In this document: in pieces, positions 727 to 34,938 of the stretch
How positions within the stretch are numbered: the first letter of the stretch is position 1
How the letters are laid out: each line of letters opens with the position of its first letter
NCBI GenBank assembly: GCA_022800525.1
Contig: JAAWQM010000013.1
Span: 1-55,888 of the forward strand
DNA from: Oscillospiraceae bacterium
GTDB taxonomy: Bacteria; Bacillota; Clostridia; Oscillospirales; Oscillospiraceae
DNA length: 55,888 bases
Direction of reading: 5' to 3'
The notes under the pieces: model-generated
The model's database searches: none
Seen by the model: only the letters and a program-made list of their open reading frames with translations
Told to the model about the DNA's origin: nothing
Position numbers and translations under genes: made by a program

Positions 727-2523
727 GTGGGTAAAAACGGTATGATTTTCGGGAAATACATCAACAAATACTACATAAAATACGCCGGATGGCTGCTGCT
801 GGGGCTGGCGGCGCTGATTATGGTGGACTACATGCAGCTCATCACGCCCAATCTGTACCAAATGGTAATCAATGGCATGAACCAAGGCTGGGTCATGGTG
901 GACGGCGTACAGATGGCCTTTGACATGGACTTTCTGCTGGACCGGATTTGTATGCCTATGGTCTGGATCGTGCTGTCCATGGTGGTGGGCCGTTTCCTGT
1001 GGCGCGTGTGCATCTTCGGCGCGGCCATCAAGGTGGAGACCGACCTGCGCAACGAGATGTTCTCCCACGCCAAGGATCTCTCCCGTCAGTTCTACCAGGA
1101 GAACAAGGTGGGCGGCCTCATGAGCCTGTTCACCAACGATCTGGAGACCGTGCAGGACTGCTACGGCTCCGGCATCCTCATGTTCTTCGACGCGCTGTTC
1201 CTGGGCGTGCTGGCAGTCATCAAAATGTGGAACATGAATCCGCTGATGACGGTCTTTTCCATGATCCCCATGGCGCTGTTGCTGGCCTCCAGCGCGGTGG
1301 TTGGGCAGTATATGAGCAAGAAGTGGGATATCCGCCAGGAGGCCTTTTCCAAGCTCAGCGACTTCTCCCAGGAGAGCTTCTCCGGCATCTCCGTCATCAA
1401 GGCCTTTGTCAAGGAGGCCAAGGAGCTGCTGGCCTTCAAGAAGCTCAACAAGGAGAACGAGGTTGCCAACGTGGATTTCACCCGTTCCTCGGTGCTTCTG
1501 CGCATCCTGGTGACGCTGTTTGTGGAGTCTGTCATCTGCATCATCCTGGGCTACGGCGGCTATCTGGTGTACCGGGGCGACTTCAACGCCGGACAGCTGA
1601 TGGAGTTCATCGGCTACTTCAACGCCATCGTCTGGCCTATCATGGCGGTATCTGAGCTGATTGACATGACAAGCCGGGGCCGCGCTTCCCTCAAGCGTAT
1701 CAGCGAGCTGCTGGACGCCAAGCAGGACGTCATCGACCGCCCCGGCGTCCACGAGCTGGAGAACGTCAAGGGCGACATCGAGTTCCGCCACCTGACCTTC
1801 CGCTATCCCGACGGGGAGTACGACGCCCTTCAGGATGTATCCTTCACCATCCGGGCCGGGGAGAACGTGGGGCTGGTGGGCCGCACCGGCTCCGGCAAGA
1901 CCACCCTGGTGGACCTGCTGCTACGCACCTGCAACGTGCCCGACGGCACCGTGTTTCTGGACGGCAACGACGTCAACGCCGTAGCCATCCGGGACGTGCG
2001 GCAGGCGGTGGCCTATGTGCCCCAGGATAACTTCCTGTTCAGCGACACCATCTCCCGGAACATCGGCTTCACCACCAGCGCCCCCGATGAGAACAAGGTG
2101 GCCGCCGCCGCTGTCCTGGCGGACGTGGACAACGACGTCCGGGGGTTCAGCGAGGGCTACCGCACCGTCCTGGGCGAGCGTGGCGTCACCGTCTCCGGCG
2201 GGCAGAAGCAGCGCATCTCCATCGCCCGGGCGCTGATGAAGGACGCGCCCATCCTGATTCTGGACGACTCCGTCTCCGCTGTGGATACCAGCACGGAGCG
2301 GGCCATCCTGGATAACCTCCGGTCCACCCGGAACGGGCGCACCACCATCCTGATCGCCCACCGGATCTCCACCATTGAGCAGATGGACCGCATCATCTTC
2401 ATCGACGACGGCAAGGTGGCCGCCACCGGCCGTCACGAGGAGCTGTATGACACATGCAGCGCTTACCGCCACATGGTAGACCTGCAAAAACTGGAAGAGG
2501 AGGGAGAACGCCATAATGCGTGA
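727..2523 (+). CDS. ABC exporter half-transporter, degenerate-site subunit (BmrC/TM287-like)
   Basis: A fused membrane-ATPase half-exporter of 598 residues: six-helix ABC transmembrane domain (about residues 15-330), then a nucleotide-binding domain. Walker A is GRTGSGKTT (385-393), the signature is VSGGQ (489-493) and the H-loop is IAHRIST. Walker B reads LILDDS, with Asp514 in place of the catalytic glutamate. This is the pattern of the degenerate-site partner in heterodimeric exporters such as BmrCD or TM287/288, usually multidrug or peptide exporters. The start is GTG at 727 because GAGG at 715-718 is 8 bases upstream; ATG at 742 is the alternative. It overlaps the next gene by 8 bases, so the two are co-translated. 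Substrate unknown. Confidence 0.92.
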   Translation: MGKNGMIFGKYINKYYIKYAGWLLLGLAALIMVDYMQLITPNLYQMVINGMNQGWVMVDGVQMAFDMDFLLDRICMPMVWIVLSMVVGRFLWRVCIFGAAIKVETDLRNEMFSHAKDLSRQFYQENKVGGLMSLFTNDLETVQDCYGSGILMFFDALFLGVLAVIKMWNMNPLMTVFSMIPMALLLASSAVVGQYMSKKWDIRQEAFSKLSDFSQESFSGISVIKAFVKEAKELLAFKKLNKENEVANVDFTRSSVLLRILVTLFVESVICIILGYGGYLVYRGDFNAGQLMEFIGYFNAIVWPIMAVSELIDMTSRGRASLKRISELLDAKQDVIDRPGVHELENVKGDIEFRHLTFRYPDGEYDALQDVSFTIRAGENVGLVGRTGSGKTTLVDLLLRTCNVPDGTVFLDGNDVNAVAIRDVRQAVAYVPQDNFLFSDTISRNIGFTTSAPDENKVAAAAVLADVDNDVRGFSEGYRTVLGERGVTVSGGQKQRISIARALMKDAPILILDDSVSAVDTSTERAILDNLRSTRNGRTTILIAHRISTIEQMDRIIFIDDGKVAATGRHEELYDTCSAYRHMVDLQKLEEEGERHNA

Positions 2524-4408
2524 GTATTTGCCTGTACTGATCGTAGGCGCGATCATCGGCGTGTTTGCCATCGTATTCGTCGTCGCCTACCTCGGTGTGA
2601 AAAACAAAAAGGAGGCCCTGGGCTTCAACCGCCACATCCCGGACGGGGAGATCATCCGCCGTCTTGCGAAGTACGCTCTGCCCTACAAGAAGGAGTTTGC
2701 GCTGGTTCTGGTCATCATGCTGGTCTCCATCTCCTATGAGCTGGCCGCGCCGCTGATTATGGGCCGGATTGAGGAGCTGATCAAGGACCGCTTCCCCCTC
2801 AGCAGCCTGTACCGATGGGTGGGCCTGTATGTGAGCTTCCTGATTGTCTCTATGCTGTGTACCTATTTTCAATCCATCATTCTGCAAAAGACGGGACAGA
2901 AGGTCCTCTCCGCCCTGCGGCAGGACCTGTTCACCCACATTGAGAGCCTGTCCCATGATCAGCTCAACAAGATCCCCGTGGGCAAGCTGGTGACCCGTGT
3001 AGCCAACGACACCAACGCCATCTCCATGATGTTCACCAACATCCTGGTGAACATGGCAAAGAATGTGTTCATTGTCGTGGGCGTGCTGGCCGCCATGCTG
3101 ATGCTGAACTACGCCCTGACCCTGATGATTCTGTGCTTCGTGCCATTCCTGGTGCTGTTCACCCTGATCTTCCGGAAGTTCACCCGGAAGGTCTACCGGG
3201 TGGTGAAGGACCGCACCACGGACATCAACACCTTCCTCTCCGAAAACCTGTCCGGCATCAAGATCACCCAGATCTTCAACCAGGAGCAGAGGAAGCTGGA
3301 CGAATTCCTGGAGAAGAGCCAGCAGCTGAAAAAGGCCAAGCAGAACCAGATTTTCGTATTCAGTATTTTCCGCCCCATGGTATACATGCTGTATATTTCC
3401 TCTGTGCTGTGCCTGCTGTACATGGGCGGCAGGGGATATATCCGGAATGTCACCTTTATGGGGCAGACCCTGTCCAGCGGCGTCATCGTCTCCTTCTACA
3501 TGTATATCTCCAAGTTCTTCAACCCCATCCAGAATCTGGCGGAGCAGTTCAACATGCTGCAGTCCGCCTTTGCCTCGGCGGAGAAGATCTTCACGGTCTT
3601 CGATATGGTCCCGGAGGTGGTGGACGAACCCGACGCCATTGAGCTGGATGAGATCCGGGGCGAAATCGAGTTCCAGGACGTCTGGTTCTCCTACATCCCC
3701 GGCGAATGGGTGCTCAAGGGCGTGTCCTTCCACGTCCACCCCCGGCAGACGGCGGCCTTCGTGGGCGCTACCGGCTCCGGCAAGACCACGATTCTCTCCC
3801 TGATCTGCCGCAACTACGATATCCAGAAGGGCCGCATCCTCATCGACGGCATTGACATCAAACGCATCAAGATCTCCTCCCTGCGCAAGCACTTCGGCCA
3901 GATGCTCCAGGATGTGTTCCTGTTCTCTGGCACCATCCGGGGGAACATCGTCCTGCGGGAGGAATCCTTCACTGACGACGAAATCTGGAACGCCTGCCGC
4001 TATGTCAACGCGGACTCCTTCATCAACAAGTTTGAGCAGGGGCTGGATGAGCCGGTCCGGGAGCGTGGCAGCAACTTTTCCGCCGGACAGCGGCAGCTAC
4101 TCAGCTTCGCCCGCACCATCATCCACCGCCCGGAGGTCATGATCCTGGACGAGGCCACCGCCAACATCGATACGGAGACGGAAATCCTGATTCAGGATTC
4201 CCTGGAGAAGATGAAGAGCATCGGCACCATGCTGATTGTGGCCCACCGGCTGTCCACCATTCAGCACGCGGACAACATCATCGTCCTCAACCGCGGCGAG
4301 ATTCTGGAGCAGGGCACCCACCAGGAGCTGCTTCACAAAAAGGGCCGGTATTACCAGCTCTACACCCTGCAATACAGCAAGCAGCAGCTGAAGATGAAGG
4401 GCGCGTGA
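2516..4408 (+). CDS. ABC exporter half-transporter, catalytic-site subunit (BmrD/TM288-like)
   Basis: The second half of the heterodimer, 630 residues. An extra N-terminal membrane segment (about 5-27) precedes the ABC transmembrane domain, then the ATPase domain with Walker A GATGSGKTT (417-425) and Walker B VMILDE with an intact Glu546. Its signature is FSAGQ (521-525) rather than LSGGQ. Pairing this weak signature with the Asp514 Walker B of the partner makes one inactive-type and one active ATP site, as is known for BmrCD-like exporters. Start ATG 2516 lies inside the end of the preceding gene, with AGGGAGAA just upstream. No strong terminator follows; the integrase islet begins about 45 bases later. 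Confidence 0.92.
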   Translation: MREYLPVLIVGAIIGVFAIVFVVAYLGVKNKKEALGFNRHIPDGEIIRRLAKYALPYKKEFALVLVIMLVSISYELAAPLIMGRIEELIKDRFPLSSLYRWVGLYVSFLIVSMLCTYFQSIILQKTGQKVLSALRQDLFTHIESLSHDQLNKIPVGKLVTRVANDTNAISMMFTNILVNMAKNVFIVVGVLAAMLMLNYALTLMILCFVPFLVLFTLIFRKFTRKVYRVVKDRTTDINTFLSENLSGIKITQIFNQEQRKLDEFLEKSQQLKKAKQNQIFVFSIFRPMVYMLYISSVLCLLYMGGRGYIRNVTFMGQTLSSGVIVSFYMYISKFFNPIQNLAEQFNMLQSAFASAEKIFTVFDMVPEVVDEPDAIELDEIRGEIEFQDVWFSYIPGEWVLKGVSFHVHPRQTAAFVGATGSGKTTILSLICRNYDIQKGRILIDGIDIKRIKISSLRKHFGQMLQDVFLFSGTIRGNIVLREESFTDDEIWNACRYVNADSFINKFEQGLDEPVRERGSNFSAGQRQLLSFARTIIHRPEVMILDEATANIDTETEILIQDSLEKMKSIGTMLIVAHRLSTIQHADNIIVLNRGEILEQGTHQELLHKKGRYYQLYTLQYSKQQLKMKGA

Positions 4409-32857: not shown

Positions 32858-32917
32858 AGGGGATGTCCGCTCTCACGGCCCGGGGCCGGGAGAAGCTTTA
32901 TGCAGGAGGAACTAATT

Positions 32918-33454
32918 ATGTCCAAATACGCCGGTACACAGACCGAAAAGAACCTGGAGGCCGCCTTTGCGGGCGAGTCCCAGGCCCGGAACAAGTACAC
33001 CTATTTTGCATCCAAGGCCAAGAAGGAGGGCTTCGAGCAGATTGCGGCCTTGTTTCTGAAGACCGCCGACAACGAGAAGGAGCACGCCAAGATGTGGTTC
33101 AGGGAGCTGGAGGGCATCGGCAGCACCGCTGAGAACCTTGCCGCCGCCGCCAGCGGGGAGAACTACGAGTGGACCGACATGTACGCTGGATTCGCCGAGA
33201 CCGCCGAGAAGGAGGGCTTCCCCGAGCTGGCCGCCAAGTTCCGGCTGGTCGCCGCCATTGAGAAGCGCCACGAGGAGCGCTACCGCGCCCTGCTGAAAAA
33301 CGTGGAGGCTCAGGAGGTTTTCAAGAAGAGCACGGTCAAGGTGTGGGAGTGCCGCAACTGCGGCCACATTGTGGTGGGAACCGAGGCTCCCTTGATGTGC
33401 CCCGTCTGCGCACATCCCCAGTCCTATTTTGAGGTCACGGCGGAGAATTATTGA
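32918..33454 (+). CDS. rbr: Rubrerythrin
   Basis: 178 residues. An N-terminal ferritin-like diiron domain ([36 protein letters not shown]) is followed by a rubredoxin-like iron site with CxxC pairs (CRNCGHI and CPVCAHP). Rubrerythrin reduces hydrogen peroxide in the cytosol and protects anaerobes from oxygen. Start ATG 32918 follows GCAGGAGGA. It is a single-gene unit with its own promoter and a hairpin after it. Confidence 0.95.
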
Positions 33455-33466
33455 TTGAAGTGCATG

Positions 33467-33519: not shown

Positions 33520-34938
33520 TCATCCCCCGGCGGACAGAGAAAGGCTGTCCAAAATCTCCTCCACCTCACCGCTGGTCAGATACGCGCCATACAGACTGAT
33601 GGAGGCATGGTGCGTATTGCAGTCTGCCCAGACTCTTCCGTTGTGCATGGTAATCAGAAATTCATAGCCGTCTGAGGACGTATAATAGTACGCAGTCTCG
33701 TAGCTGCCGTCAACGATATAGCTTTGCCCCCAGTAGTCCGCCTGCGCAATGTTATCGACGTCTAACCGGACATATCCGCTGCCGTCCGGCTTTGCGTAGA
33801 GTGCGCTGAAGCATTCGCTGACGTAGCCGCCCTCCGCGTCCGTTACAACAAACGCCTGATTTGCGTCCGGAACGTAGTCGTAATGCGACGCGAGCCATGA
33901 CAGATCGAACGTGACGCGGCCTGTCAGGGTGTCCAGCAAATTTGCAGGATTTTCAGCGGTGTATTCCATTTTTTCCGCGCCGTCGGCCCGGCTGACGCGG
34001 CGGATGCGCAGGGACGGTTCGCTGCTCAGCACCTCCGCAGAGTCCCACTCAGTATAATCCGGCAGAACACCGCCGCCGATCCGCTCCCCGGTCTCCCAGT
34101 CGTCCGATTTGAACCGGCCGGATTCGGCTATTTCCTCCAGCGGGCTGGGCGGCGAACCGTTGGGACCGGTAATGGCGACCGCACCGGGGGCGTCGCTGGA
34201 GCCGCTGCCGCTCGCGTCGGAAAAGGCATCCTCCCGGCTGGACACGATGATGTCGTTCCGGAACAGGTCCGCCACAGTGGCGGCCGCCGTCAGCGACAGC
34301 GCCATCACGATCACGATTGCGGCGGCAAGCAGCGGTATGCGTTTTTTAAGAGTAGTTTTTCTCATGGGAATATCCTCCTTTTGTGTCCGGCAGGAGGCAA
34401 GATGGGAACGAATACGCTCCCGGCTCTCCTGCGGAAGTTTCAACTCGTCAGAGATTCGTTTCAGGTTTCGCTCCAATTTCAGTCCCCCCCCGATTTGTTT
34501 TTTCAGGATGCTTCTGGCCCGATGCAGCCGCATGGAAACAGCTGAGGTGCCGGTGTGCAGGAGCTGTGCGATTTCCCGGAAGGAGTATCCTTCGAAATAG
34601 TGCAGGCATACAACCGTCCGATACTTTTCCGGCAGCTCCATGACCGCGTGAAACAGCTCCCGGTCCTCCGGCTGTGTAAACAGGACTGTCTCATCCAGCG
34701 GGACGGTCTCATGGCTCCTGGCGGCGCTGAGGATATTTTTGCAGTGATTGATGGTGATTTTTGTAAGAAAGGCGCGTTCCTTGCCGGAATAGACCGTCAT
34801 ACCGCCCTCCAGCAGCTTGAGAAATATGGACTGCACAACGTCCTCCGCTTCCTGCGGTGAGCGGAGCCAGCTGAGCGCGACCCGGTAAACCATATCCGCG
34901 TAGCAGTCAAAAAGCTCCAGTACAGCGTCCTGTTCCAT
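33520..34938 (-). CDS. ECF sigma factor fused in frame to a transmembrane anti-sigma factor
   Basis: 472 residues. Residues 1-70 are sigma region 2 (FDCYADMVYRVALSWLRSPQEAED) and ~100-147 region 4 (LPEKYRTVVCLHYFEGYSF, then the helix-turn-helix and LHRARSILKK). After Gly150-152 comes a short anti-sigma segment (LKLERNLKRISDELK), a membrane helix (~200-220) and a ~250-residue external domain. Normally these are two adjacent genes. The joint is a G8 run: with seven Gs the sigma would end at IGGD-stop and the anti-sigma could start at a TTG with a G-rich ribosome site. A strong internal AAAAGGAGGA with ATG (34365) also precedes the membrane part. Start ATG 34938 follows GGGGAGG. Fusion, slippage switch or sequencing error are all possible. 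Confidence 0.8.
   Translation of the reverse strand: MEQDAVLELFDCYADMVYRVALSWLRSPQEAEDVVQSIFLKLLEGGMTVYSGKERAFLTKITINHCKNILSAARSHETVPLDETVLFTQPEDRELFHAVMELPEKYRTVVCLHYFEGYSFREIAQLLHTGTSAVSMRLHRARSILKKQIGGGLKLERNLKRISDELKLPQESRERIRSHLASCRTQKEDIPMRKTTLKKRIPLLAAAIVIVMALSLTAAATVADLFRNDIIVSSREDAFSDASGSGSSDAPGAVAITGPNGSPPSPLEEIAESGRFKSDDWETGERIGGGVLPDYTEWDSAEVLSSEPSLRIRRVSRADGAEKMEYTAENPANLLDTLTGRVTFDLSWLASHYDYVPDANQAFVVTDAEGGYVSECFSALYAKPDGSGYVRLDVDNIAQADYWGQSYIVDGSYETAYYYTSSDGYEFLITMHNGRVWADCNTHHASISLYGAYLTSGEVEEILDSLSLSAGG
34484..34491. repeat. G8/C8 homopolymer at the sigma/anti-sigma joint
   Basis: Eight consecutive Gs on the coding (minus) strand, after ATC and before ACTGAAATTG. Loss of one G stops the sigma frame two codons later; gain of one stops it after about ten further codons. 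Tracts of this kind are classical slippage sites. Confidence 0.85.

Follow-up and report, generated by a model that had tools for sequence, protein, structure and literature searches.

A run of eight Gs places an ECF sigma factor and a membrane anti-sigma-like protein in one open frame in an Oscillospiraceae genome assembly

The window analysed here, i.e., the whole stretch of 55,888 nucleotides from an Oscillospiraceae bacterium, carries on its minus strand a single frame of 472 codons that is open in the assembled sequence from an ATG at 34938 to a TGA at 33520. It encodes, in this order, an ECF sigma factor, a tract of eight Gs (G8), an anti-sigma-like segment, a membrane helix, and an outer domain (Table 1). 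A preliminary description of the locus had placed sigma regions 2 and 4, the tract, and the three anti-sigma parts in one frame, and the present analysis bears this out and adds the strand. Both sigma domains score above the Pfam cut-off, Sigma70_r2 (PF04542) at residues 9–73 and Sigma70_r4_2 (PF08281) at residues 94–143; with regions 2 and 4 only, and 152 aa by homology (class size about 150–200 aa), the sigma part belongs among the ECF sigma factors. Provided that the eighth G is real, sigma factor, helix, and outer domain lie on one polypeptide, as expected of a fused ECF sigma and membrane anti-sigma factor. The fusion is known from the sequence of one assembly, that of one genome of the species.

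Table 1. Features of the sigma/anti-sigma locus, in positions of the window.
Feature	Position	Strand	Basis
Conserved upstream region: TGTG, TGTTATA, palindrome GTGGCCAC, then AAAA	34963..35006	-	Alignment of the window with nine orthologous loci
ECF sigma factor part, regions 2 and 4	34483..34938	-	Pfam; homologous to the complete 152-aa sigma factor of relatives, 66–81% identity to 18 orthologous loci
G8 tract keeping sigma and anti-sigma in one frame	34484..34491	-	Occupies the position of the GGGAGG ribosome site of relatives
TTG codon	34474..34476	-	Aligned with the anti-sigma ATG start of relatives
Cytoplasmic anti-sigma-like segment	34370..34473	-	Alignment, consensus ERxxKRISDELKLPxxSRERIRS; two predicted helices (structure predictions)
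Internal ribosome site with its ATG at codon 192	34363..34382	-	Conserved motif; use inferred
Single membrane helix, predicted, limits approximate	34264..34335	-	Hydrophobic stretch; helix 47–70 of the anti-sigma model, low confidence
Outer domain, conserved, mostly beta, plus stop codon	33520..34263	-	Alignment; structure model

The anti-sigma segment, the helix, and the outer domain are all conserved among relatives in the alignment. The structure model of the anti-sigma part (pLDDT 79, pTM 0.71) is most confident in the outer domain, where pLDDT lies mostly between 80 and 97 over residues 111–317, with dips near 131–140 and 241–250. Ahead of the membrane, two helices are predicted with moderate to low confidence, the Class I anti-sigma domain being a four-helix one. 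The zinc-finger anti-sigma (ZAS) motif is H-x3-C-x2-C. Inspection of the alignment found no such motif in the cytoplasmic segment of the window protein and its close orthologues, and in the Pfam searches zf-HC2 reached only E values of 0.03–0.04, under the cut-off, so that a ZAS domain of the ECF52/48/53 type was not recognised.

No second G8 run occurs in the window, where shuffles that keep dinucleotide composition predict far more (mean 10.9). When one G is removed, the frame reads ATC GGG GGG GAC TGA and the sigma factor terminates at 152 aa, while a TTG seven bases past the G run opens the anti-sigma frame; the TGA of the sigma gene has stayed intact in a neighbouring frame, as though it still functioned. 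The junction in the window is CGGGGGGGGACTGAAATTGGAGCG, and that of the relatives resembles GGGAGGGATTGATATGGAGCG, with a ribosome site, then the sigma stop, and then an ATG. Because in this assembly the ribosome site has turned into eight Gs and the sigma stop lies out of frame, both genes are read as one 472-aa protein. The calculated pairing with the anti-Shine–Dalgarno sequence is -10.1 kcal/mol for seven Gs (G7) and -10.6 kcal/mol for eight, about equal to the sites of seven relatives (-10.2 to -12.3 kcal/mol).

We inspected 21 loci, 18 of them orthologous and three more distant. The orthologous loci comprise 12 that are distinct by exact sequence, among which L033 and L034 are 98% alike. 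Genome contigs were the source of seven close-orthologue loci. In the family, 28 of 400 genomes gave a match, the window's own among them, and four of the other matches are strong; in the order, where 26 of 394 genomes matched, one further full-length orthologue, L070, came up. Two other genera, with matches in 4 of 64 and in 5 of 34 genomes, supplied the new loci L111, L112, and L114–L117, and a third is represented by a single genome that was already known. The sigma and anti-sigma genes are separate in all 18 orthologous loci (12 distinct), with the anti-sigma gene in a different frame, and none is fused. Their sigma factor has 152 aa in 17 loci and 153 aa in one (L043), and the anti-sigma ATG, for which the window has TTG, sits at the sigma stop in every one of them, behind a GGGAGG ribosome site that overlaps the last codons of the sigma gene. 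The expectation that seven Gs would restore two genes, with a ribosome site at the tract and a start at the TTG, is thus matched by the layout of the relatives. The distant loci L060 and L044 are likewise split, and L052, in which the sigma start is cut off, is uninformative. A broader set of 72 sigma loci, which leaves out the window and still includes any duplicates, has a single member longer than 200 aa, L085. This locus (1144–3069), from a genome of the same order, encodes a 642-aa ECF sigma factor with TPR repeats in one frame and is not a membrane anti-sigma fusion. ECF sigma/membrane anti-sigma operons like this one occur in several genera, the majority of them within one Oscillospiraceae-like family.

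Among the 25 genomes of the genus examined, own included, no close orthologue of the pair was found outside its own genome; among other sigma factors there, the best three matches reach 52–55% identity. The neighbouring gene at about 32905–33457, which we take to encode rubrerythrin, reaches up to 88% identity in genus members. The contig therefore fits the genus, and the pair appears to have been gained or patchily lost. The close orthologues occur in several other genera of the family and once in another family, a distribution that points to transfer or loss.

Both halves of the frame are, by their substitution pattern, under purifying selection. In pairwise comparison of the window with eight relatives, dN is 0.11–0.24 for the sigma part and 0.21–0.39 for the anti-sigma part, with pS of 0.46–0.72, i.e., near saturation. 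Upstream of the sigma gene, TGTG and TGTTATA are kept in all ten aligned sequences (the window and nine orthologous loci) and the palindrome in nine; it reads GAGGCCTC in seven and GTGGCCAC in the window and L043, where both arms are changed, and is broken in L035. This block is possibly an operator or promoter. The dN pattern, together with the kept upstream elements, is evidence against a long-dead gene. It bears on the reading that takes the extra G for a recent mutation with loss of regulation, in which the fused protein would be inactive or locked in the off state and decay of the operon would be beginning. An indel in a single genome fits such a history, the authors of GeneTack regarding singleton frame transitions as likely indels or errors (excerpt of PMC3711429), and so does the TTG in place of the ATG that all 18 orthologous loci use. 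Against it stand 472 codons with no internal stop and the conservation of the sigma part, of the anti-sigma part, of the region upstream, and of the internal ribosome site described below, and we consider incipient decay very unlikely.

The internal ribosome site that had been proposed before 34365 is real. It reads AAAGGAGG, followed by eight bases and an ATG. When the window is aligned with 12 distinct orthologues, 11 of these 13 sequences have a GGAGG-type site with ATG or GTG at this position, the exceptions being L035 (ACG) and L115 (ATA). Nowhere else in the aligned anti-sigma genes is such a motif common to at least three sequences, whatever the frame. The codon preceding GAG ends in G in 12 of the 13 despite six different residues there, and of 111 variable anti-sigma codon columns, 11 hold their third base in at least 90% of sequences, three of these at the internal site; conserved Glu-Asp codons account for part of the pattern. 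A start at 34365 would yield a product of 281 aa with the helix and the outer domain, without the sigma-binding segment. The conserved motif suggests that such a short outer-domain product exists in the whole family, independently of the fusion, and it could act as a decoy or as a partner of the full form. As this product contains no sigma factor, initiation at 34365 cannot stand in for proteolysis in freeing sigma, an alternative that the preliminary description had offered.

Whether the eighth G is genuine decides between fusion and ordinary genes. In the genome (2.87 Mb), 10 overlapping pattern matches resolve into eight distinct tracts of eight or more Gs; five lie inside genes, and, as judged by eye, four besides the studied tract leave the gene frame open. 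A coding-score test took in 37 other tracts of seven to nine Gs, namely the other seven G8/G9 tracts and 30 of 125 G7 pattern matches, all of the 30 located on the first contigs. Thirteen of the 37 are coding on both sides; 12 of them keep the frame, the thirteenth (L149) is a gene boundary, and the other 24 gave no verdict. The studied tract has the same best-scoring frame on either side, with a downstream score of 10.5, below the limit of 15 applied to the others. In L149 (about 1499–1515), seven Gs directly follow a TAG stop and precede an ATG, an arrangement that makes this G run a naturally occurring ribosome site within the genome under study; the downstream product is a putative FliR-like protein.

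The simplest competitor of the fusion holds that the tract was miscalled, with seven true Gs and an ordinary pair of overlapping, translationally coupled genes, the anti-sigma gene starting at TTG. Such a pair would be laid out like the 18 orthologous loci. Seven Gs make a good ribosome site, a G7 run lies directly before an ATG-started frame elsewhere in the genome, and a study of Bifidobacterium cautions that annotated lengths of G tracts may differ from the true ones (excerpt of PMC9187656). The 12 of 13 checked tracts that keep their frame, with the thirteenth at a gene boundary, speak against a miscall, which we regard as a serious, if minority, possibility. The reading we favour, to which we give about an even chance, is that the fusion is real, arose recently through one base, and yields a sigma factor tethered to the membrane and dependent on proteolysis.

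Such a fusion could have arisen in two steps. An A-to-G change would first have created a run of seven Gs that continued to work well as a ribosome site; slippage would then have added a single G, producing the G8 fusion. The helix of the anti-sigma part would hold the fused protein at the membrane, where its cytoplasmic helices may block the sigma factor in cis until an outer signal leads to intramembrane proteolysis and the release of free sigma, as in IutY. Some free anti-sigma factor may still be initiated at the TTG, and the short outer-domain form at 34365. A gene for a site-2 protease is present in the genome; PrsW had no match in it, and the control for that search recovered PrsW from 4 of 14 genomes. 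The model of the fused protein is weak (pLDDT 71, pTM 0.48, 12 alignment rows). Foldseek places it closest to the sigma chains in SigW-RsiW complexes (0.67–0.72, TM by target), and those of CnrH-CnrY and RpoE-NepR reach 0.66–0.69, while polymerase-bound sigma factors give 0.32–0.43. As some inhibited sigma factors also score low (AlgU-MucA, SigE-RseA, and SigK, 0.33–0.44), the fold match is no proof of a blocked state.

The statement that known sigma/anti-sigma pairs are separate genes proved too strong, as IutY and the groups ECF48, ECF52, and ECF53 are fused (excerpts of PMC5411451 and PMC8999054). IutY of Pseudomonas putida (ECF243) is a sigma/anti-sigma hybrid activated by Prc, which takes off its outer part, and by site-2 cleavage through RseP, and it resembles the window protein in combining an ECF sigma factor, one membrane segment, and an outer anti-sigma domain in a single polypeptide (excerpt of PMC5411451). 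We liken the two by layout and sigma family; IutY differs in serving iron cell-surface signalling with an outer-membrane receptor, and the excerpt of that paper mentions no G tract. In ECF48, ECF52 (SCO4117 of Streptomyces), and ECF53, the sigma factor is likewise fused at its C-terminus to a membrane anti-sigma portion, with proteolytic release expected (excerpt of PMC8999054). These proteins are from Actinobacteria and carry a zinc-finger anti-sigma domain, a motif that the window protein does not show. Since sigma/anti-sigma fusions such as IutY and ECF52 are known, the present one is not a new kind. Separate pairs like SigW-RsiW have the layout of the 18 orthologous loci, and SigW-RsiW is the best solved match by both sequence and fold; it differs in consisting of two proteins, with a zinc-binding RsiW according to the title of the structure entry, whereas the window has one frame.

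A further reading makes the tract a reversible switch, in which replication slippage (G7/G8) or slippage of RNA polymerase alternates between a separate sigma factor plus inhibitor and one tethered protein. The tract does lie exactly where one base decides the layout, and it pairs with the anti-Shine–Dalgarno sequence at both lengths. There is a likeness to the pilus genes of Bifidobacterium, also a gut bacterium, in which G tracts between two frames decide their joining and length variation was measured; those tracts differ in having 10–12 Gs in the rows noted and in occurring in several species, against the shorter G8 of one genome here (excerpt of PMC9187656). Switching by tract length, as first proposed for this locus, found no direct support. 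A comparison of the locus for seven, eight, or nine Gs among related genomes had been suggested with it, and the longest G run at the junction of the 18 orthologous loci is four, so that the tract is not conserved among relatives. None of the genome's other seven G8/G9 tracts resembles a switch by eye, and of three RNA folds near the tract, where a stimulatory stem-loop would favour programmed transcriptional slippage, none is significant (z 0.68, 0.36, and -1.37). We judge a reversible switch unlikely. The fullest version, a G-homopolymer ribosome site acting as an architecture toggle, with G7 giving a soluble sigma factor and a separate inhibitor, G8 a tethered sigma factor freed only by proteolysis, and the conserved internal start adding a short outer-domain form in both, we hold to be quite unlikely. 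If the tract were variable, it would provide a gut bacterium with a phase-variable sigma pathway, of which we found no report in the open-access literature searched.

Some ECF sigma factors with regulatory extensions have been suggested in reviews to descend from fusion with an anti-sigma factor (excerpts of PMC8999054 and PMC8103513). Because the last part of the sigma gene contains the ribosome site of the anti-sigma gene in this operon type, a slip at that site can fuse both, which offers a simple fusion route. If the toggle were true, a one-base slip would turn a sigma pathway of two proteins into one with a single protein, the first step in the origin of a fused ECF sigma factor. A case that is one base away from the split form would give a close view of the sigma/anti-sigma fusion step.
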